Counted from the first letter of the stretch, positions 2,484 to 21,455 are shown. The stretch is DNA of 36,137 nucleotides from Anaerolineae bacterium (GCA_015486845.1 WFQU01000056.1:1-36137); one strand, 5' to 3'. The notes: generated from the sequence alone by a model not told the origin. Made by a program: numbers and translations.

Positions 2484-4361
2484 ATGAGCAAGCGCATTGA
2501 CGAAAATGTCAAAGCTAAGTTAGAGCGATTACCTAAAGAGCCGGGCGTTTATCTGATGCATGACGCCGGTGGCAAAGTCATTTACGTGGGCAAATCGGTT
2601 AATCTGCGCGCCCGGGTGCATAGCTATTTTCACGCTTCTACTCAGCACGATGCCAAGACAAGGCAGTTGGTGAGCAAGATCGCCGATATTGACTGGATCA
2701 TCGTCAGCAACGAAGTGGAAGCACTGATCCTGGAAAATTCGCTCATCAAGCGCTACCAACCTCATTACAACATCCAGCTCAAAGATGACAAACAATATCC
2801 TTATATCAAAGTGCACTGGCAAATGCCTTTTCCCAAAGTAACCATGACACGGTACGTGATTTCCGATGGTGCTCGTTATTACGGCCCTTATACTTCTGCC
2901 TGGAGCGTGCGCCAAACTTTGGAAGGCCTGCGGCGCGTGTTCCCCTATCTTTCCTGTGACCGCAAAATCACCGGGCAAGATAGCCGGGCTTGTCTCTATT
3001 ATGACATCAAACAATGTGCCGGACCGTGTATCGGTGCCATTGACCAGGCAGCGTATCGGGAAATGATCGATCAGCTTTGTCATTTTCTGGAAGGGGATAG
3101 CGAATCCGTGCTGGAACAGTTGCGCCAGAAAATGCAGACTGCCGCCGACCGCTTGCAATTTGAGCTGGCTGCTACCTATCGCGATCGCCTTGCCGCCGCG
3201 GAACGAATCGCCCAGCAGCAACAAGTCGTGGCGCAAAAAGGCACCGATATGGACGTCATTGGCTTGGCCAACGATGATGGCGATAGCTGCTTGCAGATCT
3301 TTTTCGTACGACATGGCAAATTGCTGGGCCGGGATTCTTTTACCCTCACCAATACCAGCGGCGAGATAGAAAGCAACATTGTCAGCTCTTTTTTGACGCA
3401 ATTTTACGATCAGGCCGCCCATATTCCGCCTCAGATCCTTTTGCCAGTACTGCCAGGGGATGCTGCCGTGATTGAGAAGTGGCTCTACCAACAACGACAG
3501 GCGAAAGTCCAATTGCGGGCACCCCATCACGGGCCTAAACGGGATTTGTTGGAACTGGCGCAGCGCAACGCCGCCGAGACTTTGGCGCGGCTACAGGAAC
3601 AATGGCAGCGGGAAGCGCATCGGCAAACGGAAGCTGTGGCCGCTTTGCAAGAAGTGTTGGGTATGGCTGTTCCTCCCAATCGCATCGAAGGATATGACAT
3701 CAGCACGTTGCAAGGCAGCAATAGCGTCGGCTCCATGGTGGTCTTCCAGCGCGGCGTGCCGGAGAAAAGCCATTACCGGCGCTTTCATATTCAATCAGTG
3801 CAGACCACCGGCCGGCCTGACGATTATGCATCCATGGCCGAAATGCTCAGCCGCCGTTTTCGCCGGGCCGTCGCAAGCCAGCAGGATCAACCGGGGCAGG
3901 AAAGCAACGTGCGGGAGAAAATGTGGCGCTTGTTGCCAGATCTCGTGCTCATCGACGGTGGCAAGGGACAGTTGGGCGTGGCGGTTAAAGTGTTGCGGCA
4001 ATTCGGGCTGGAAGATCAGGTGACTGTTTTGGGGCTGGCGAAACAGCGAGAGGAGATTTTCTTACCCGGTCGGGCAATACCGTTGCGCCTATCGTTGGAT
4101 TCTCCCGCCTTGCGCCTTTTACAGCGGGTGCGGGATGAAGCGCACCGTTTTGCCATCACATTTCAACGCCAGACCCGACGTAAACGAGGCTTAGCATCCA
4201 GCTTGGACGCGATTCCTGGCATTGGCCCCCGGCGCCGTCAAGCATTGTTACGCCGTTTTGGATCAGTGGCAGCAATTCGCGAAGCACCGCTGGACGCACT
4301 TTCTGCCGTGCCTGGCATGAATCGTGCTGTGGCCCAGCGTCTCAAAGAGGAACTATTATGA
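2484..4361 (+). CDS. uvrC: UvrABC excinuclease subunit C
   Basis: UvrC makes both incisions flanking DNA lesions in nucleotide excision repair, working with UvrA and UvrB. The 625-residue product has the full architecture: an N-terminal GIY-YIG nuclease (PGVYLMHDAGGKVIYVGKS, residues about 20-38), a Cys cluster (CLYYDIKQCAGPC), a UVR motif for UvrB contact (LQFELAATYRDRLAAAE), an RNase H-like endonuclease domain (IEGYDISTLQGSNSVGSMVVF and LVLIDGGKGQL), and tandem helix-hairpin-helices at the C-terminus (LDAIPGIGPRRRQALL, LSAVPGMNRAVAQRL). ATG 2484 follows AGGAAG with a 9-nt spacer; an upstream in-frame start at 2451 lies inside the previous gene. The stop overlaps the next ATG (ATGA), indicating translational coupling. 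Confidence 0.97.
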   Translation: MSKRIDENVKAKLERLPKEPGVYLMHDAGGKVIYVGKSVNLRARVHSYFHASTQHDAKTRQLVSKIADIDWIIVSNEVEALILENSLIKRYQPHYNIQLKDDKQYPYIKVHWQMPFPKVTMTRYVISDGARYYGPYTSAWSVRQTLEGLRRVFPYLSCDRKITGQDSRACLYYDIKQCAGPCIGAIDQAAYREMIDQLCHFLEGDSESVLEQLRQKMQTAADRLQFELAATYRDRLAAAERIAQQQQVVAQKGTDMDVIGLANDDGDSCLQIFFVRHGKLLGRDSFTLTNTSGEIESNIVSSFLTQFYDQAAHIPPQILLPVLPGDAAVIEKWLYQQRQAKVQLRAPHHGPKRDLLELAQRNAAETLARLQEQWQREAHRQTEAVAALQEVLGMAVPPNRIEGYDISTLQGSNSVGSMVVFQRGVPEKSHYRRFHIQSVQTTGRPDDYASMAEMLSRRFRRAVASQQDQPGQESNVREKMWRLLPDLVLIDGGKGQLGVAVKVLRQFGLEDQVTVLGLAKQREEIFLPGRAIPLRLSLDSPALRLLQRVRDEAHRFAITFQRQTRRKRGLASSLDAIPGIGPRRRQALLRRFGSVAAIREAPLDALSAVPGMNRAVAQRLKEELL

Positions 4362-7192
4362 GCATTGCAGTTGACGATCTGAAAGATTTGCCGTTATTTG
4401 CTGACTTTAGCGAGGATGTGCTGAATGAGTTGGCCCGCGTCGCTAATGAGGTGGTTATCCCTGCCGTCCAAGATGAAATGATTGTGCTGGATCCGCGCCG
4501 TCCTGTGACGTATATCTACGTGATTATTGACGGCAATGTGCGGGCTACCTGGTATCCGCCGGCCCAGAGCGACTTGCCTCAGTTGGGCTGGTCCCGCCCT
4601 TTAGCGATCGGAGATGTGCCTTGCCACAATGAAATATTGCTCAACCGTCCCTGCACCACGCGTGTTACGGCAGTTGCCAACAGCCGACTGATCACTTTCG
4701 ATCTGCGCACTTTTTCTCAACTGCTGACGAGATATCCGCTGCTGTACGAGAGACTTTTGCCCTCGAAACGCATCAGACGGCTGCGCGCTATGCCGTTACT
4801 CATGAACGTGCCTGACGCCATGTTACTCTGGGTGAACCATTTTGTCAGCGAGCGAGAATTGGCCGCTGGGGAAACGTTGGTCGGCGATGTGGAACACCCT
4901 ACGCTTTGGATGATCGACAGCGGGCAGTTGCAGGTTTTGCCGGCGCTGGCCAAACCAAAAAAAGAAATATTAGCCGGCCCTGGGTTCTATTTCCCGGATG
5001 CGCCTCTGGTTGTAGGACATTTCCGCACAGTTTATAGTGGTGAAGCTAAAGTGAAAACAAGGCTCTTTGGCCTGCCCATGGACGTGGTGGAGCCGTTACA
5101 GCGTTACCTGCCAGTGCTGTCGCATCGCCTCTACGATGTCGGCATGACGTTATCTCCGCCCCAACGTTCTCCTCAGGTACACACTATCCCGGAGGCGCCG
5201 ATGCTGCCCCCCGCAACGAAACGCGCGCCGGCAGCGCCAGCATCCTTTCAATCTGTCAATTTGCCCGACATGATTCGGCGCGCTTCTGTTTTTGCGAACT
5301 ACTCCGATGAGGCCTTGCAGTTACTGACTGGCTTCTTTGTCTGGCAATATGTGCCCCAGGATTTAGTCGTGGTGGCACAGGGCAGCCGTGATCACGCGTT
5401 GCGCATCTTGTTGGAAGGAAATGCTTTGTTGCGCTCGTTAGATGCGCTTGGGCGTGCTCGTCCGAGATCATACTTATCGCCGGGCAACGCCATCGGCCTG
5501 GAACAATGGCAAGGCGGTACGTCTTACGATGTTTCTGTGGAAGCGGTTATGCCTTCCACTTGGCTGACTATCAGCTACCAGGATTTCGAAAAAGCGGATC
5601 TGATTTGGCAGCAGCGGCACCGCCATCACTGGTGGCAGCGTAGAGCGGTCGCTAACAAAGATTTGTGGCAGATGTTAAACTTTCCGTCCGATTTTTCTTT
5701 TCTTGCTGCGCACAAGAAGAAACAGACGACAGGGAAAAAATGGTGGCATTTACGCTATAACGAGAAAATTATCTGGCAAGGGCGCGCACACATTATCTTC
5801 TTGTTGACTAAGTTGGTCGATGTATTTCTTGGCATCGCCTTTATCTTCTTGCTCATTTGGTTTATGATACGCATTAGCCAAATGTCGTTGCCATCCTGGT
5901 TTTGGGTTGGATTGATGGCCATGTCAGCGTTGCTATTTATGATTCTTCTCCTCGCCACACTTATCGACTATTACAATGATACCTCTTTACTGACTGACCA
6001 GCGTGTCTTAGGTATTAACCGTACTTTACTCAAGGCTGACCGCCGGCAAGAGATCGCCTTGAACCGGGTGCAGGATATCAACGTCGCTATCGACTTTGCC
6101 GGACAATTCTTTGATTACGGTACCGTGCGTATTGATACGGCAGCCACACAAGGCAGTGTACTGTTTCGGAATATTCCGCATCCTAATATCATTGCCGGCG
6201 AGATCCGTGCCCAAAAGGCTACGATCAGAGCACAGCAGGTCGCCGCGCGGCAAGAGGCAGTGCGAGAAGAGCTCACACAGCGCATCAAGAGAATCTTTTT
6301 GCCTTTGGCGCCGCAGCAAGTCATTCCCGATCAATGGCAGCCTTCCAATTACTATCCTTCACGGTGGCTGCAGCAGGCCTGGCGGAAAACAGTGGGCGTT
6401 ATTGCCTGGCCTTTTCGCTTTCTATCCAAAATCGGGCATGGCTTTTTCGGCTTTTTAGTGAAGCTTTGGCGGTTGTTCCTCTGGTTGCCGGCTTGGTTGA
6501 TTGCCGTGCTCAACGGAAAGAAGCCGCCACTTTTGTCTAAACAACCGACTATTCAACAGACCACTAAGAAACATGTCTCGCCGAAACCATGGCGGATCTT
6601 TGCCACCGAGTGGCAAGAGGGAGATACTTATTTTTGGCGAAAAACGTATATTAACCTGCTGGAACGCGCTGGCGTGTGGTTTCTTGTCTTCATTATCATT
6701 GTTTCGTTAGATGTCTGGACTAGAGCATTTATTTTGTCACACAAGTGGGGCTTGATCATATCGGCAATTTTTACCCTGTTATCCTTTGGTAAATTGCTGT
6801 GGGAGGTAGATGATTGGGGCAACGATCGCTATATTCTGACGAAGACTGAGATTATCGACGAGGAAAAAACGCCGTTATTGCAAAACTTGACTCGCAAAAG
6901 TGCTTCTTTGGACAAAGTGCAAAATCTTTCTTCGGAGATGGGCTCTTTATGGGAGAGAATACTCCGTTATGGCACTGTGCGCATCCAGACGGCTGCCCAA
7001 GAAGGGTCTATCACTTTTGTAAAAGTGCGCCGTCCGGGCGAAGTTCAGCAGATCATCTCCAAACGGTTAGATGAATTCCGGCGGGCCCAGGCAAAACGGG
7101 AAGCGGACGAACAGCGCCACATTATTTTGGACGGCATTCAAGTCTACGACGAAATACGTTTTGGTAAAGAAGATAAACCGAATCAGCCCTGA
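4358..7192 (+). CDS. Membrane protein with three cNMP-binding-like and two bPH2 domains
   Basis: This 944-residue protein appears multi-domain. Residues about 8-125, 145-255 and 305-415 read like cyclic-nucleotide-binding domains (LKDLPLFADFSEDVLNELA; MPLLMNVPDAMLLWVNHFV; IRRASVFANYSDEALQLL). All lack a clean phosphate-binding GE...RxA cassette. Two hydrophobic pairs follow (about 477-505 and 514-538; 771-787 and 797-815), with another hydrophobic stretch near 696-718. Each pair leads into a bPH2/YdbS-like domain carrying near-identical motifs (YGTVRIDTAATQGSVLF at 587 and YGTVRIQTAAQEGSITF at 871), so the C-terminal half is an internal duplication. It overlaps uvrC by 4 nt. The role is unknown; regulation of a membrane process by ligand sensing is only an inference. 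Confidence 0.75.
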   Translation: MSIAVDDLKDLPLFADFSEDVLNELARVANEVVIPAVQDEMIVLDPRRPVTYIYVIIDGNVRATWYPPAQSDLPQLGWSRPLAIGDVPCHNEILLNRPCTTRVTAVANSRLITFDLRTFSQLLTRYPLLYERLLPSKRIRRLRAMPLLMNVPDAMLLWVNHFVSERELAAGETLVGDVEHPTLWMIDSGQLQVLPALAKPKKEILAGPGFYFPDAPLVVGHFRTVYSGEAKVKTRLFGLPMDVVEPLQRYLPVLSHRLYDVGMTLSPPQRSPQVHTIPEAPMLPPATKRAPAAPASFQSVNLPDMIRRASVFANYSDEALQLLTGFFVWQYVPQDLVVVAQGSRDHALRILLEGNALLRSLDALGRARPRSYLSPGNAIGLEQWQGGTSYDVSVEAVMPSTWLTISYQDFEKADLIWQQRHRHHWWQRRAVANKDLWQMLNFPSDFSFLAAHKKKQTTGKKWWHLRYNEKIIWQGRAHIIFLLTKLVDVFLGIAFIFLLIWFMIRISQMSLPSWFWVGLMAMSALLFMILLLATLIDYYNDTSLLTDQRVLGINRTLLKADRRQEIALNRVQDINVAIDFAGQFFDYGTVRIDTAATQGSVLFRNIPHPNIIAGEIRAQKATIRAQQVAARQEAVREELTQRIKRIFLPLAPQQVIPDQWQPSNYYPSRWLQQAWRKTVGVIAWPFRFLSKIGHGFFGFLVKLWRLFLWLPAWLIAVLNGKKPPLLSKQPTIQQTTKKHVSPKPWRIFATEWQEGDTYFWRKTYINLLERAGVWFLVFIIIVSLDVWTRAFILSHKWGLIISAIFTLLSFGKLLWEVDDWGNDRYILTKTEIIDEEKTPLLQNLTRKSASLDKVQNLSSEMGSLWERILRYGTVRIQTAAQEGSITFVKVRRPGEVQQIISKRLDEFRRAQAKREADEQRHIILDGIQVYDEIRFGKEDKPNQP

Positions 7193-15306: not shown

Positions 15307-16449
15307 TCACGGCTGGACTTGCACAAAGCGATCACTGCGCACCTGGAAGATGTAAATCATTGGGTTCCGCAAATCGCCGTTGGCGTCGTACTGCACTTCG
15401 CCCAACATGGTCTGCATTTTCAATTGGTGCAACGCGGCAATGACTTGATCTGACCGGATAGACTTCGCTTTTTCTGCCGCTGCAGCCAACACTTGCATGG
15501 CCACATAGCCGTTCACCGAGTAAGTATCCGGGTTGCGATATTCCACCGCCTGGTAGCGGGAAATCCAGGCCGTGGTTGCGACCGCTTTGGGGCTGGGGGC
15601 AAACGCGCTCAAGTAAATGCCGTCCGCTTTGCCGTCCGCATTATCGATGGTCGCAGCCAGGAAAGCGCCGTCGCTGGCTAAGAAAGGCAGTTTCACCCCG
15701 GCATCGACCAGCGCAGCCCGCAGATAGGGTGCTTCGATTTCGTAGCCGGCGTAGAAAATAGCGTCCGCTGCCGACGCTTGCACCTGTGTCACTTCGCGGT
15801 CATATTTCCCTTGACCCTCTTTTACCTGGATTTGCAGTGCGACCCGCGCTCCTAAGGGCCGTAACGCTTTGGTGATCTCCGTGGCCAAGCCGATGCCGTA
15901 AGGGGTATCATTATGCAAAATAGCCACGTTCTTGGCACCTAATTTTTGCACTAAGAAAGCCGCGTCCACTTTGGCCTGCACGCCGTCATTGGCGTTGATC
16001 CGGAAGAAGTTGCGGTAGCCCCGATGCGTGAGCGAAAGTTCTGAGGCAGTCGGCGTGATGACAACGAGGGACAAATCTTTGTAAACCGCCATGGCCGCCA
16101 AAGTTTGGCCGCTGTTGTAATGGCCGATGACGCCCAAAACCGGTTTGCCGGCCTGCACCGCCGCGGTGACCTGCTGGGCTGCTGCTACCGCCGCATCGTC
16201 ATCCGATTCGTCGTCCAAAGGAACGATTTGCACCGGCCGACCCAGAATGCCGTGGGCACGATTCAGCTCCGCCGCGGCCAACCGCGCCCCGCCGACCACC
16301 GTCTGGCCGCCGTTGGCCTGGAAGCCGCTAAGCGGTGCGGCAACATAGACGATAACCGGCTTACCTTTGGGCTTGCCAGCGCCACACCCGGCTAACGGCA
16401 GCAACAACGCAATGAACAAAAGTAAGTGTATGATGCGTTTGATGGACAA
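15307..16449 (-). CDS. LivJ-type periplasmic-binding lipoprotein
   Basis: This 380-residue extracytoplasmic substrate-binding protein is of the branched-chain amino acid/amide type (type I periplasmic-binding fold). It begins with a lipoprotein signal (IIHLLLFIALLLPLAGCG), with Cys22 as the expected lipidation site. Family stretches include IVYVAAPLSGFQANGGQTVVGG, ELNRAHGILGRPVQIVPLDD, VIGHYNSGQTLAA, NVAILHNDTPYGIGLA and the C-terminal LHQLKMQTMLGEVQYDANGDLRNP. TTG 16449 is the start, with GAGAGG 9 nt upstream. No LivHMGF permease or ATPase genes are nearby, so either transport partners lie elsewhere or the protein acts as a sensor. The ligand is unknown. Confidence 0.9.
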   Translation of the reverse strand: MSIKRIIHLLLFIALLLPLAGCGAGKPKGKPVIVYVAAPLSGFQANGGQTVVGGARLAAAELNRAHGILGRPVQIVPLDDESDDDAAVAAAQQVTAAVQAGKPVLGVIGHYNSGQTLAAMAVYKDLSLVVITPTASELSLTHRGYRNFFRINANDGVQAKVDAAFLVQKLGAKNVAILHNDTPYGIGLATEITKALRPLGARVALQIQVKEGQGKYDREVTQVQASAADAIFYAGYEIEAPYLRAALVDAGVKLPFLASDGAFLAATIDNADGKADGIYLSAFAPSPKAVATTAWISRYQAVEYRNPDTYSVNGYVAMQVLAAAAEKAKSIRSDQVIAALHQLKMQTMLGEVQYDANGDLRNPMIYIFQVRSDRFVQVQP

Positions 16450-16491
16450 AGTTCAGTGCCTCTCTTTGATAAATACGTTTATGCTGTGATG

Positions 16492-17319
16492 TCAGGCCGG
16501 CCGGTGAGCGTACATTTGCTGGATGGTGTCGCCGATATCCTGCAACGCTTTGACCTCTCCCTCGATTTCGCGGCCAATTTGCTCCGCCCGGCTTGATTCA
16601 ACCTGCCGGTTGCCGATGAGCAACATCTGCGAATAGACCGTTCCCAAGGCAGCCAACGAGTGCTCCAGTTGCAAATCGGCTCTTTCCATTAAATCATCCA
16701 GCCGTTCCAGCGTTTGCCATTGTTCTTGTAGCGATTGCAATGTTTTGCGTATCTCTATAGCTACTGATTGGTTCGTTTCCAACGCCAATCTGCTTTGCAG
16801 ATCGTGTATCTCTTCCGGCACCCGGTGACGATCCTTGCGAATGATGTCATCTCGTCGATAAGTCTGCACCCGTAACGCCAAGGTGAAAATGTGGGCGATC
16901 CAATCATCCACGCCGGCCACGGTCTGTTGCAGCCTGTCCCGTAACATGCCTTTGCGTTGACGGCTCAGGATGCGATTGATGCGCTGGTGATAGGACAAAG
17001 CTTGATCAACTTTGTCGCGCAAAGTACGATCCTTGATTTGCCCCGGGTTGAATCGTTCCTGAAAGAGCATGTTCACCACATTGGCTGTGTCCTCCTGATC
17101 CGTGAGGCTGCTGACGACAATGGCAATGATACCGATCACTGCTACAGCCCCCCATCCCCAAAGCGGCCAGATGGCAAAAGGGTGGGGATAAAAAACGGTC
17201 AGAAGCATGGCCATTGCGAGTAAAGCGGCGTTTTCCCAGCGCAAAAATGCGTGCTGTATGATGGCGGAACGCGCTTCTTTTTCAATTTGAGCCCGAATTG
17301 CGTATTGTTGATCTTTCAA
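16492..17319 (-). CDS. Two-TM coiled-coil protein, unknown function
   Basis: I do not recognise this 275-residue protein. It has an amphipathic N-terminus, two close membrane segments (about residues 30-46 and 54-72), then a long, mainly helical charged region with coiled-coil character to the C-terminus (for example LRDKVDQALSYHQRINRIL and EIRKTLQSLQEQWQTLERLDDLMERADLQLEHSLAAL). The start is TTG 17319 with AGGAAA close upstream. It lies 127 bp after the SBP-VWA gene and 42 bp before the lipoprotein gene on the same strand. The layout, a short TM hairpin with a long cytoplasmic helical arm, would suit a partner of PspA or of the SBP-VWA protein, but that is inference. Confidence 0.75.
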   Translation of the reverse strand: MKDQQYAIRAQIEKEARSAIIQHAFLRWENAALLAMAMLLTVFYPHPFAIWPLWGWGAVAVIGIIAIVVSSLTDQEDTANVVNMLFQERFNPGQIKDRTLRDKVDQALSYHQRINRILSRQRKGMLRDRLQQTVAGVDDWIAHIFTLALRVQTYRRDDIIRKDRHRVPEEIHDLQSRLALETNQSVAIEIRKTLQSLQEQWQTLERLDDLMERADLQLEHSLAALGTVYSQMLLIGNRQVESSRAEQIGREIEGEVKALQDIGDTIQQMYAHRPA

Positions 17320-17446
17320 TTGGTTTCCTACCTGGACCAGCCAGAACTAAAAATTTGAACGCCAAGTTGCGAAGAAGCAAAGTCGCCAAGGGTTTCTCTT
17401 TGCTCTCTTCGGCGCCGCAACGGTCAGCCGTTTCACAATTGAACCA
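17320..17446. repeat. Short intergenic AACGCCAAG-type repeat remnant
   Basis: The gap contains GAACGCCAAGTTGCGAAGAA followed by GCAAAGTCGCCAAGGG. This resembles degenerate tandem units of the form CGCCAAG/GCAAAG. No gene and no terminator with a U-tract is seen. Confidence 0.4.
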
Positions 17447-19141
17447 CTAAAAATAGGTCGAAAGTATCTGATAAAGCTCCTCGATGGTTTTCGTGTTGCC
17501 TTCTCTTACTTGCCCGCCCGTTGCATCTGTAATCTGCCGCAGCGTGTCGAAATCGGCATCATCGCCGAAAGCGACAGCGAAGATAATAACTTTGTGGCCG
17601 TCTTTCTCGCCCTTACGAATGTGCGCCAGCAAAGTACGTAGAGAAGTCTGGGAATTATTTTCCTTGCCGTCGGTCATCACCACCATGGCGTTGATGCGGT
17701 CCGTATCTGTTTGGCGCTGTAAACGACCTAAGGCAACATCAACGCCGTCCAACAAAGCCGTTTTCCCGGTGGCCTCCATGGTGTCGATGTCTGTCAGAAG
17801 AACCGATTTGTTAGTCTGCAAAGGCGCCAGCGGTTCTACCGTAATAACCCGATTGGCGAATTGCACGAAGCCCACTTGTTGGCCGGGCGGCATCTGATCG
17901 AGAAAGCTGCGCAATGCCGCTTTGGTGTGCGTCATTTTCTCCCCCTTCATGCTGCCGGAGCTATCTACCACTAAGAAGATGTTGGACTGGCGCTTGGTGT
18001 AAAACCAGGCGTTACGTACTACTTCGATGACCGCCGGCGACGGAATTTGTAGCGTGGTTTGCGGTTGTCGCGCATCGACCCATTGCGCCTGGCCCCATGG
18101 CGTACCTTGCGTCGTCAACGAGATGGAAAGGTCGGCCGGCCGATAACCGGCAGCCAGTACCCGTTTTTGGTTTTCCGGCGCGATCAGGAACGCCTTGAAA
18201 GCCTGAAACGTGCGTCGTTGGTTATCGGTCAGATCCGGCTGCTCCAAAAGCGCCAAAGGATGATCCAGCCAAAGCGTGCCTTCGGCCGGGTAAACAGCCA
18301 CTAAATGCGGACCTTGGGGGCGCTGATGGTTGTAGGCAATGACCATTTGCTCGCTGGTGACGAATGCATCCAGGAAGTTGGGCCCCCGCTCCAGCGCTTG
18401 CTGCAACAGCACGTTCTCCCCTTCGCCGTAATAGGTGATGCTGTGTTCGATCTTAGCCACGTATGCCAGTGTATCTGGCGTGGTTGCCTGCGCTTTTGTC
18501 AGCCCCCGGGTGATCCCGGCGCCGGCATAGAATTCCGCCAACGTAGCTAACATGCCGCTGGCGTCCTGGCTGCTGTTGGGATGTCCCCAGCGGAAGTTGG
18601 CGTCTGTTGTGGCCCGGTGCTGGACCGTCTGCCAGCCGATAGCTTGATCCGGCCAGCCAAAGCCCCGGGCAACATCCTCCCACATAGCCAACACCACTGG
18701 CGTCACCGCATAGCGGAATGACTCACCAACGATCCGGCCCTTTTTCTTTTCCTGCCAATCGCGGTCGAATATGCCCAACCAAAGGGAAGAATCGGGGCTG
18801 ACGGCTTGCCACGAGCCCGCCAGGATACCGGCGCTCATTTTGCCGGGTGCCACGGCAACGCCACTGATTTGCAGCAGCTTACCATCATCACTGTGCAGCT
18901 TTTTCCGGTTGAAAGCGTCGATGAGCGGCTGCAACAGTGCACTTTTCTCAGGCGAATAAGCCAATGTAAAGGTTCCAGCATGCACTTTTTGTTCGATGCC
19001 TGTGGGCTGGCTGGCACCATTGTTTTGGGTCCAGCGAGCGAACCAGTACAGGCCGCCGGTTAGCACTAAGCAAAGGGCAACCAACGCCAGCAAAACGGCG
19101 GCAATTACAACACGCCAGGACGATTTATGTCGCCGGTTCAT
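17447..19141 (-). CDS. Membrane-anchored solute-binding and VWA-domain protein
   Basis: This 564-residue protein has an N-terminal signal anchor (residues about 9-36), a region resembling an extracellular solute-binding protein (about 50-350) and a C-terminal von Willebrand factor A domain (about 388-564). The VWA metal-ion-dependent adhesion site is intact: DSSGSM at 393-398, a Thr in ATGKTALLDGVD, and the Asp in VVMTDGKEN. No lipobox is present, so it should sit outside the cell, tethered by one helix. ATG 19141 follows GGAGG and overlaps the upstream stop (ATGA). Binding a ligand and displaying a metal-dependent protein-interaction domain is the likely role; ligand and partner are unknown. 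Confidence 0.88.
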   Translation of the reverse strand: MNRRHKSSWRVVIAAVLLALVALCLVLTGGLYWFARWTQNNGASQPTGIEQKVHAGTFTLAYSPEKSALLQPLIDAFNRKKLHSDDGKLLQISGVAVAPGKMSAGILAGSWQAVSPDSSLWLGIFDRDWQEKKKGRIVGESFRYAVTPVVLAMWEDVARGFGWPDQAIGWQTVQHRATTDANFRWGHPNSSQDASGMLATLAEFYAGAGITRGLTKAQATTPDTLAYVAKIEHSITYYGEGENVLLQQALERGPNFLDAFVTSEQMVIAYNHQRPQGPHLVAVYPAEGTLWLDHPLALLEQPDLTDNQRRTFQAFKAFLIAPENQKRVLAAGYRPADLSISLTTQGTPWGQAQWVDARQPQTTLQIPSPAVIEVVRNAWFYTKRQSNIFLVVDSSGSMKGEKMTHTKAALRSFLDQMPPGQQVGFVQFANRVITVEPLAPLQTNKSVLLTDIDTMEATGKTALLDGVDVALGRLQRQTDTDRINAMVVMTDGKENNSQTSLRTLLAHIRKGEKDGHKVIIFAVAFGDDADFDTLRQITDATGGQVREGNTKTIEELYQILSTYF

Positions 19142-20388
19142 TGCCCCTCCACATTTAACTGGAACCAGCGCAACAGCGATTGTAAGATGTCTCGGTTGGG
19201 AAAACGCATGGCATCCGCCCGTTTGACGATAGGTAGCACCCCCTGCGCCTGCCAACGGGTGAACAGCGTATTGCCATCGGTGACGGAGATTTTTGGATTT
19301 ATCGGGCGCAAGCCCTGTGCCACGGCTAATTTTTGTACCGGCTCACTGAGTAGATATTGTTCGAAGAGCAACGCCGCATTTTTCTCTTGGGCGGTGGTTT
19401 CCGGCCCCATCCAGACGGTGAATGGAAAATCGAACCAGGTTACGTAGGGCGGGTAGATGAAACGCAGCGGTTCTCCCCAGCGGCTTTTGATGCCGTCCAT
19501 GTTTTGCAGCAGGTCGCTTTCCAAAAGTTGGCCGCCATCGCCGATGGAATAGCCAAAAAGGGCGAAGTCCTCGGCGGTGTAACTACTGCCGCCCCCCAAA
19601 TCGGTCACCGAATGCATGATATCAGAAAGCCATTTCTGGAAAGCGGGCTTCGTCACGTCGGCCACGGAGATGTTGGGCCGGTTATAGTATTCCCCGGCAG
19701 CAGCGACCATTGCCGCCAACCCGCCCACATTGCGCAACGGGTTAGGCACCACTAGCTTGAAGTAGCCCCAAGCCGCCTCGCCGCCTAATTCCGGCCAGCC
19801 GCCTTTTTTCGTGGCCGCGTCGTGAATTACTTGCCAGTCTAATTTGCCGTAATGCGCCAGAAGCACTTTGGCCCGGCTTTCGTAAATGCCCCAAACGAAC
19901 AGCGAAAGGGCGATGGGTCGGGCGCGATATTCGCCGTCGGTGAGGAAAACATCGCGGCCCAATCGTGTCTTGTAGGTCGCATTGGCCAATTCTACCAGGT
20001 AGCGGCTATCCGGTATCCAGACGGTGGGGAATTGCGCCAATTGTGTTTTTTCCGGCTCGGTCAGTTGGCTTCGATCTTTGTCGCCAAGGGTGCCGAAAGC
20101 ATCACGGTCCCATTTGCCCAATGCGGTGAGGCCATCCATGGCAATGACCTGGACATGGACCGGCACGCCATCTAATTTGTGGTTTTCCCGGTTGAATTGT
20201 TCGGCCGCACCGCGCACCCACGGTTCAACCGCTAAGGAGGTTAACACGCGAACGTCGATCCGGTCGCGTTTCTGCCCTGTTTGCAACGTTGTTGCCGGGG
20301 CCTTGGTCTGTCGCCAGAGCAGAGAGCCGGCAATGACAACTAAGGCAGCAAAAATGATTGCAAAAAATAGAAGGCGGGTCCGGTTCAT
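19138..20388 (-). CDS. Membrane-anchored extracellular solute-binding protein
   Basis: This 416-residue protein has an N-terminal signal anchor (residues about 6-24) without a lipobox cysteine. A type II solute-binding-like fold follows (IDVRVLTSLAVEPWVRGAAEQFNREN; TVWIPDSRYLVELAN; YPPYVTWFDFPFTVWMG; FEQYLLSEPVQKLAVAQGLRP). It is coupled by a 4-nt overlap to the SBP-VWA gene, whose N-terminal half is similar in plan, so the two may be ancient paralogues. No permease or ATPase accompanies them. The translation signal upstream of ATG 20388 is modest (AAGGATAAAAT). A MITE-like repeat ends about 84 bp upstream of the start. The ligand is unknown. Confidence 0.85.
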   Translation of the reverse strand: MNRTRLLFFAIIFAALVVIAGSLLWRQTKAPATTLQTGQKRDRIDVRVLTSLAVEPWVRGAAEQFNRENHKLDGVPVHVQVIAMDGLTALGKWDRDAFGTLGDKDRSQLTEPEKTQLAQFPTVWIPDSRYLVELANATYKTRLGRDVFLTDGEYRARPIALSLFVWGIYESRAKVLLAHYGKLDWQVIHDAATKKGGWPELGGEAAWGYFKLVVPNPLRNVGGLAAMVAAAGEYYNRPNISVADVTKPAFQKWLSDIMHSVTDLGGGSSYTAEDFALFGYSIGDGGQLLESDLLQNMDGIKSRWGEPLRFIYPPYVTWFDFPFTVWMGPETTAQEKNAALLFEQYLLSEPVQKLAVAQGLRPINPKISVTDGNTLFTRWQAQGVLPIVKRADAMRFPNRDILQSLLRWFQLNVEGQ

Positions 20389-20471
20389 ATTTTATCCTTG
20401 CTGTAAAACACGATGTGATGTCATGGCCAGCCGCGCAGCGAGATAGCTGGTATGTTTTATATGCCTTCAAT

Positions 20472-20609
20472 ATAACTGCTCAGCCCTGGTCAAGTAGAGC
20501 ACTGATTAAGCAGACAGCACGCAGATGCCCGCAGATAGATCAGAAAAGAGCAGCAAAAATCAGCGTTAGTCTGCGTCATCTGCATCTAATGGTTGGAGGG
20601 CTGAATAGT
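20472..20609 (-). repeat. MITE-like element, copy 1
   Basis: This is an about 138-bp element with imperfect terminal inverted repeats: TAACTGCTCAGCCCT at the left end and, read on the other strand, TGACTATTCAGCCCT at the right end. The minus strand aligns along its length with 24386-24507. The interior carries TCTGCG/CATCTGC motifs shared with the composite repeat leader. It has no coding capacity. Confidence 0.75.
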
Positions 20610-20679
20610 CACCATTTAGTGAGAAGAGCGCGGTCCCCGGCGCCTGCAACGCTCTCCAGGAACCGCGAGAAACAAACGA

Positions 20680-21357
20680 TTATGCGCCTAAATTCAGTTT
20701 CTTCTTGCGCTCGGCTAACTGTCGACCGAGTTTGTCTTTTTCTAGCAAATCGTCCATCTGCTGATCCAGGCGGCTGGCGTCAACTTCACCTTGCGCTGCT
20801 GCTTGGTCCAGCCGGCGCTGGATGGCGTCTTTCATATCGGCGATGCCAGCCTCTTCAGCCGTGACACCGGCAACCCCGGCAACGACTTTGTGGGTCGTCT
20901 CTTTCGATTTGGCCAATTCCAGCATGGCATTAAGTTTTTCACGTTCTTGTTTAATCTCATTGATCTTAGCTTCCAGCTTCAATCGCGCGTCGAGCAATTT
21001 CTGGAACTCTTGTGCCTGCTGCGCTGCTTGCTCTTTGTATTGTTCGGCCAATTCCTGAAACGTATTTAGCCGGCTTTGCGCTGCCATGGCCAGATCTTCT
21101 TTGCCTTCTTTGAGCAAGAAGTCGATATTATGATCCAACTCGGCGATCTTGGCGCTGTACTCTTCGTATTTTCGCTGCAGCGTCTTGGCCTCACCGCCGA
21201 CAGTGGCCGCAGTATCTTCTAACGCCTCCAGGTTATCTTCTGCCCGGCGAATGTACTCGTCGATAACCGCAATACTATTTGCTTTGAGCGCTTTGTTGAC
21301 CAACGCGTGCAAGTTTGCCGAAATGAGGGTGTTAACTTTTTCCAACAGTGACGCCAT
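20680..21357 (-). CDS. pspA: PspA/IM30 family membrane-remodelling protein
   Basis: PspA/IM30 proteins are bacterial relatives of ESCRT-III that form rings and rods and repair or protect the inner membrane. The 225-residue product is almost all helical. It has an amphipathic N-terminal helix (MASLLEKVNTLISANLHALVNKA), then the family stretch IAVIDEYIRRAEDNLEALE and long coiled coils (LDHNIDFLLKEGKEDLAMAAQSRLNTFQELAEQYKEQAA). ATG 21357 follows GGAG with a 7-nt spacer; the in-frame codons further upstream lack a site. A strong promoter with a leader hairpin precedes it. It is followed on the same strand by the two solute-binding proteins, after a 291-bp gap holding the MITE-like element. Confidence 0.92.
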   Translation of the reverse strand: MASLLEKVNTLISANLHALVNKALKANSIAVIDEYIRRAEDNLEALEDTAATVGGEAKTLQRKYEEYSAKIAELDHNIDFLLKEGKEDLAMAAQSRLNTFQELAEQYKEQAAQQAQEFQKLLDARLKLEAKINEIKQEREKLNAMLELAKSKETTHKVVAGVAGVTAEEAGIADMKDAIQRRLDQAAAQGEVDASRLDQQMDDLLEKDKLGRQLAERKKKLNLGA

Positions 21358-21426: not shown

Positions 21427-21455
21427 ATTATAGCGTAAAAAGTGTGCTTTCGCAA
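21427..21455 (-). promoter_or_regulatory. Sigma-70-type promoter for pspA
   Basis: On the minus strand TTGCGA (21450-21455) and a perfect TATAAT (21427-21432) are spaced by 17 bp, about 70 bp before the pspA ATG. The -35 core TTGCG matches that of the coiled-coil gene promoter. No sigma-54 -24/-12 element was seen. Confidence 0.7.

Follow-up and report, generated by a model that had tools for sequence, protein, structure and literature searches.

The closest described relatives of the gene cluster analysed here, which lies on a 36,137-nucleotide stretch of DNA from an Anaerolineae bacterium (GCA_015486845.1, WFQU01000056.1:1-36137; the whole stretch is called the window below), are systems in which PspA is encoded together with a small integral membrane partner, namely the phage shock protein (Psp) system of Escherichia coli, with the anchors PspB and PspC, and pspA-ydjGHI of Bacillus subtilis (PMC8581546). 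The localisation of PspA in B. subtilis depends on the integral proteins YdjG/H and on an SPFH protein (PMC8581546), which by analogy is a precedent for the way of working considered below and not for membership. The nearest reported arrangement is found in the main text of Ravi et al. 2024 (PMC11237479), where PspA/Snf7, AAA+, ABC transporter and PBPB-OmpA genes form operons, and where the control of PspAs that have no associated AAA ATPase is named as an open question. The cluster in the window consists of genes for a divergent PspA, an anchored solute-binding protein (SBP), a second SBP fused to a VWA domain (SBP-VWA), a two-helix transmembrane (TM) protein with a predicted coiled-coil part (TMCC) and a LivJ-like lipoprotein, and it may represent a kind of cell-envelope surveillance system not described before.

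As in E. coli and B. subtilis, the PspA of the window is encoded with a small integral membrane partner, but this partner, TMCC, belongs to no Pfam family, and the anchored SBP, the SBP-VWA and the LivJ-like lipoprotein are additions to the classical sets. No match to PspB, PspC or PspF of the PspF-PspABC system was found within the unit (PspC was not searched for across the genome). The B. subtilis-type operon contains an SPFH protein, whereas the window has neither SPFH nor NfeD and some of its relatives have both. The operons in the main text of Ravi et al. (PMC11237479) likewise place a PspA-family gene with a solute-binding protein, and SBP-OmpA-like proteins stand beside TMCC and SBP-VWA at two loci related to the window (L097 and L144); those operons have an ABC transporter, in contrast to the unit in the window, which has no ABC ATPase or permease. 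Neither a VWA partner nor TMCC is mentioned in that main text, and the main text of PMC9239133 contains no VWA partner of PspA, the supplements of both lying outside the search. No paper on PspA together with VWA was found in a search that left out supplements and subscription papers, and an earlier mention is possible.

Gene content and conserved order of the unit

The five genes are all located on the minus strand, in the transcription order pspA, SBP, SBP-VWA, TMCC, LivJ-like lipoprotein:

20680-21357, minus strand: pspA (225 aa), divergent PspA/ESCRT-III-type membrane-remodelling protein (Pfam PspA_IM30)
19138-20388, minus strand: SBP (416 aa), N-terminally anchored, extracytoplasmic solute-binding-like protein (TM segment, hhalign, weak fold match)
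17447-19141, minus strand: SBP-VWA (564 aa), N-terminally anchored solute-binding domain plus VWA domain (Pfam SBP_bac_11, VWA)
17951-17965, minus strand: metal ion-dependent adhesion site (MIDAS) motif D-S-S-G-S of the VWA domain, residues 393-397 (invariance in orthologues)
16492-17319, minus strand: TMCC (275 aa, TTG start), two-TM hairpin plus predicted cytoplasmic helical domain (hydropathy, AlphaFold model)
17101-17238, minus strand: TMCC transmembrane hairpin, approximately residues 28-73 (hydropathy and modelled helices)
15307-16449, minus strand: LivJ-like lipoprotein (380 aa, Peripla_BP_6), last conserved gene (Pfam)
21427-21455, minus strand: promoter-like site TTGCGA-17-TATAAT, about 70 bp 5' of the pspA ATG (consensus scan)

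The original prediction, made from this DNA alone, had listed these genes on one strand, and each of them was found where it had been placed. The 4-nt overlap between the two SBP genes (ATGA) and the lack of permease and ATPase genes adjoining the cluster were likewise as predicted. The boundaries (16492-21357) needed revision: because the LivJ-like gene belongs to the conserved set, the conserved unit is 15307-21357. The gaps are 291 bp between pspA and SBP, 127 bp between SBP-VWA and TMCC and 42 bp between TMCC and LivJ, and a scan of the gaps between the genes gave no terminator-like site on the minus strand. The pspA ATG is preceded by an AAGGAG ribosome-binding site. The promoter-like site upstream has 10/12 consensus matches, which is a weak indication given that shuffled sequence yields about as many such sites as the region does.

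Gene order was compared in a sample of 199 Anaerolineae genomes, to which all class-wide counts below refer. Relatives of SBP were present in 103 of them, and 66 of the 81 strong relatives are directly preceded, at a distance of up to 6 kb, by a pspA gene in the same orientation (median gap 233 bp); several of the other 15 are cut off by contig ends and can therefore not be judged. Conservation of the neighbourhood had been named beforehand as the main test that could refute the predicted system, and the pspA-SBP order is kept across 28 family-level groups as labelled in the genome set. All five genes occur in identical order in about 30 non-redundant, independent loci, with a LivJ orthologue at the same position in most loci, and the conservation of order far exceeds chance. 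The mean column identity was highest for SBP (71%, 18 orthologues), followed by PspA (63%), SBP-VWA (59%) and TMCC (46%).

The membrane anchor predicted for SBP is present (TM residues 6-24), but the protein scores below the cut-off of the Pfam family SBP_bac_11 (16.5 against 25 bits), and its identification as an SBP comes from profile comparison, in which it is homologous to the SBP part of SBP-VWA (hhalign 99%), and from a weak fold match. The structural model has low confidence (predicted local distance difference test, pLDDT, 62.5) and matches the sulfate-binding protein 5um2 with an E-value of 3.5e-5; because the model is poor, its resemblance in Foldseek to proteins that bind sulfate and sugars supports the fold class and not a ligand. 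For SBP-VWA both domains are recognised by Pfam (SBP_bac_11 38.9 bits, VWA 72 bits), a TM segment covers residues 11-29, and the MIDAS is intact as predicted: 18 orthologues all retain D393, S395 and S397 and, further along the chain, T461 and D491. The best plasmid matches of SBP-VWA have 24-32% identity over most of the length, and no annotated pspA was seen near SBP-VWA at the three plasmid loci examined. The same two-domain architecture is carried by proteins with the NCBI product name 'Substrate-binding and VWA domain-containing protein' (e.g. on a Streptomyces plasmid), for which no paper describing a function was found, again outside supplements and subscription papers.

Two further observations concern these proteins. 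On a Streptomyces plasmid an SBP-VWA gene (L129:9685-11189) is followed by genes for two uncharacterised proteins with hydrophobic N-termini, and this locus is possibly a distant version of the SBP-VWA module. At four loci NMT1-type solute-binding proteins are encoded between TMCC and SBP-VWA (L097:3164-4795, L144:6806-8419, L145:7291-8880 and L146:6123-7739); those of L097 and L144 have a weak C-terminal OmpA match, and all four resemble the PBPB-OmpA protein of other PspA operons.

The divergent PspA and its putative transmembrane partner

The PspA of the window matches Pfam PspA_IM30 with 68.9 bits (cut-off 33.9) over residues 4-219 of 225, and its profile matches PspA/Vipp1 structures at about 4e-12. 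It lies outside the canonical subgroup as defined by NCBIfam phageshock_pspA (44 bits against a cut-off of 243). Scores against the Pfam model are 47-76 bits for every PspA that partners SBP, and the canonical type, with approximately 95-180 bits, is never adjacent to SBP even though it is present in some of the same genomes. A phylogenetic tree places 54 PspAs, including that of the window, apart from five other PspAs of the class with 98/97 support and long branches; all but one of the 54 are linked to TMCC or the SBPs. Most of the divergent PspAs carry the motif N-S-x-A-V-x-D-x-Y, which is absent from the four canonical PspAs examined; in these four an EDP-type motif occurs close to the N-terminus. 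At several loci a second PspA copy, strongly diverged, lies in tandem after the first and ahead of the SBP gene (L077:8118-8900 and L078:7207-7923, also L012, L015 and L020).

Hydropathy marks two hydrophobic segments in TMCC, residues 32-50 and 55-73, and the fairly confident AlphaFold model of the protein (pLDDT 83) consists entirely of helices, of which 28-43 and 55-73 form a membrane hairpin in the N-terminal part. Neither profile nor fold comparison identified a Pfam family or a relative in the PDB (Pfam was checked across 19 members), and the fold search returned only chance helical matches, the best with an E-value of 0.17. Assignments to the XpaC/TelA type, to XpaC/Halogen_Hydrol or to another known helical family were rejected, as none of the 19 members had such a Pfam match.

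TMCC and the divergent PspA are closely linked in their occurrence. With the boundary between divergent and canonical PspA set, by our own choice, at 81 bits, both were present in 98 of the 199 genomes and neither in 87, while one without the other was found in 6 and 8 genomes (exact test, 8e-39, ignoring phylogeny). Among the 12 genomes having only canonical PspA, one had TMCC.

The same protein also occurs with each part of the unit separately. A PspA-TMCC pair without any SBP was found at 16 loci, and SBP-VWA stands beside a TM-hairpin coiled-coil protein like TMCC, without PspA, at L131, L134, L135, L137 and L101 (Chloroflexota outside the class, Chloroflexia-type) and at L055 and L056. 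On a Miltoncostaea plasmid (Actinomycetota, L128) a TMCC relative is located beside SBP-VWA, again without PspA. This protein first stood out by its neighbour SBP-VWA, and a profile built without it then confirmed the relationship: the leave-one-out profile detected it at an E-value of 1e-16 and 52/59 TMCCs below 1e-5, the best other protein had an E-value of 0.003, and shuffled and reversed controls gave none. A search of plasmids with a single TMCC sequence found nothing, and the distribution of TMCC beyond Chloroflexota is seen through plasmid matches only. In three genomes in which the modules are split (G171, G184 and G196) one TMCC adjoins pspA and another adjoins SBP-VWA, and in comparative terms these two copies are the best evidence for TMCC as the putative contact point between the modules.

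Given that TMCC adjoins PspA without SBPs, adjoins SBP-VWA without PspA and is duplicated in some genomes, it looks like a membrane-spanning connector that joins intracellular PspA to an external SBP/VWA assembly. The four genes from pspA to TMCC had been taken as one unit; their co-location stands, but they are not equal members of it, since a PspA-TMCC pair and an SBP/SBP-VWA/TMCC module are separable and are joined in this clade.

TMCC-like proteins were also observed in other settings. One of them (L103:4303-5250) is encoded away from PspA, beside large secreted repeat proteins and PA14/lectin-type proteins, and partial TMCC paralogues of this kind are present in several genomes. At L111:5442-6683, L112:8094-9329, L115:5074-6435 and L116:7671-9863 the genes for PspA and TMCC are separated by one for a membrane protein with tetratricopeptide repeats (TPRs; one family) or for a Ser/Thr kinase with TPRs (another genome), which suggests alternative inputs.

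Function of the unit and competing explanations

Genes for regulators and for other membrane-associated proteins accompany the unit in a part of the loci. Directly upstream of pspA, 17 non-redundant loci encode an AAA-ATPase that carries a winged-helix domain of the OmpR type (AAA-wHTH), and at other loci this position is taken by a histidine kinase or receiver-kinase protein; neither AAA-wHTH nor a histidine kinase is found near pspA in the window or in its close relative. One example of AAA-wHTH (L042:5717-7066) is an AAA/STAND-like ATPase fused to an OmpR-type winged helix, an unusual regulator type for a Psp system. In five loci NfeD and SPFH (Band 7) genes, as in YuaF/flotillin-type modules, follow directly downstream of TMCC, and they are absent from the window:

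L040:11894-13468 and L046:11912-13527: NfeD and SPFH within the full operon
L094:8232-9922, L095:6073-7693 and L104:9003-10667: NfeD and SPFH after a PspA-TMCC pair, no SBPs

The cluster is best read as a PspA-based envelope-stress system, with sensing, complex formation and repair as the parts that we infer. Specifically, we give a probability of about one half to the unit 15307-21357 encoding a PspA-based apparatus for envelope surveillance and membrane maintenance. TMCC, consisting of a membrane hairpin and a cytoplasmic helical domain, would recruit PspA to the inner face of the membrane, a role that may be likened to that of enterobacterial PspB/PspC and of YdjG/YdjH in Bacillus. On the outer side, SBP and SBP-VWA, both anchored, would form a complex contacted by TMCC, in which the metal site of the VWA domain may hold a partner, while the SBP lobes and the separate LivJ lipoprotein may bind a small molecule or an envelope fragment. 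A change outside, either ligand or damage, would then be relayed through TMCC and lead PspA to assemble on the membrane and to stabilise or reshape it, and in many relatives expression would be controlled by the AAA-wHTH protein or histidine kinase encoded just upstream of pspA. The envelope function that had been predicted is in part supported, and is strengthened by the co-occurrence of TMCC and PspA and, in some loci, by the NfeD/SPFH genes and the upstream regulators.

Several points weigh against this reading. Protein contacts, ligand binding and a stress response of the genes rest on inference. The 291-bp gap between pspA and SBP could be the site of a second promoter, and the SBP/SBP-VWA and PspA modules can work apart, because SBP pairs occur without PspA in many Chloroflexota. 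The genome of the window has no orthologue of AAA-wHTH and contains ordinary winged-helix regulators only. The exact test of co-occurrence takes no account of phylogeny, and some of the failures of synteny are in contigs too short to be judged.

The recruitment and control of PspAs that lack PspB/PspC/PspF or an AAA ATPase is an open question, for which this operon is a concrete and widely conserved candidate, having both a TMCC that tracks the divergent PspA almost one to one and a predicted outward-facing binding apparatus. If the surveillance reading is true, this would, as far as the literature covered shows, be the first PspA system that includes an extracytoplasmic solute-binding/VWA part of its own, and the common but unstudied SBP-VWA proteins would gain a function. 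A wider and tentative extension is that TMCC may represent an unnamed superfamily of transmembrane adaptors that couple an outside SBP/SBP-VWA complex to cytoplasmic effectors, PspA being one of them; this would amount to a ligand-gated, extracellularly controlled bacterial ESCRT-III with PspA-free versions in Chloroflexia and Actinomycetota.

Two other explanations were considered unlikely. In the first, SBP, SBP-VWA and TMCC build or hold a surface structure, the VWA domain serving in its metal-dependent assembly, and the task of PspA is to preserve membrane integrity at that site. The intact MIDAS, the loci with TMCC and SBP-VWA and no PspA, and the replacement of SBP in some loci by an SBP-OmpA-like protein potentially able to hold on to the cell wall are all compatible with this explanation, but no gene for a structural or secreted substrate is constant in the neighbourhood, and the regulators beside pspA together with two or three different binding proteins per unit suggest signal input. 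The second, to which we attach similarly little probability, is that the genes are kept together through joint induction in a shared stress regulon and not through binding of the proteins to each other. Single upstream regulator genes in many loci and the splitting of the modules in several families would fit such a regulon, whereas the near one-to-one presence of TMCC and PspA and the two TMCC copies, one per locus, in the split genomes point to a protein partnership.

The LivJ-like lipoprotein matches Peripla_BP_6 with 165 bits and its nearest solved structures are amino-acid binding proteins. In the genome of the window a second LivJ-like gene has permease and ATPase genes of its own after it, and the LivJ of the operon is therefore not the sole candidate for importers of the branched-chain type. 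The original argument that missing transporter genes speak against transport holds for the SBP pair, and for LivJ it is to be read together with this second gene. It is in our view very unlikely that the SBPs and LivJ act as the binding subunits of ABC permeases whose genes lie elsewhere, with pspA a mere neighbour, and transport was rejected as the main role: SBP_bac_11 and Peripla_BP_6 are families that normally serve ABC importers and the genome has many BPD_transp_2 permeases, but no permease or ATPase is constant across the approximately 30 related loci, the other LivJ already has its adjacent transporter genes, neither an SBP-VWA fusion nor a TM hairpin protein is a component of importers, and the order with pspA is kept across the 28 families.

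Genes flanking the unit

Upstream of pspA in the window there is a divergent nitroreductase gene, and the LivJ-like gene is followed by an amidase and an M19 dipeptidase, neither of which belongs to the conserved set. Further away, at 4358-7192 on the plus strand, a 944-aa protein with the unusual combination of cyclic-nucleotide-binding and bacterial PH domains is encoded.

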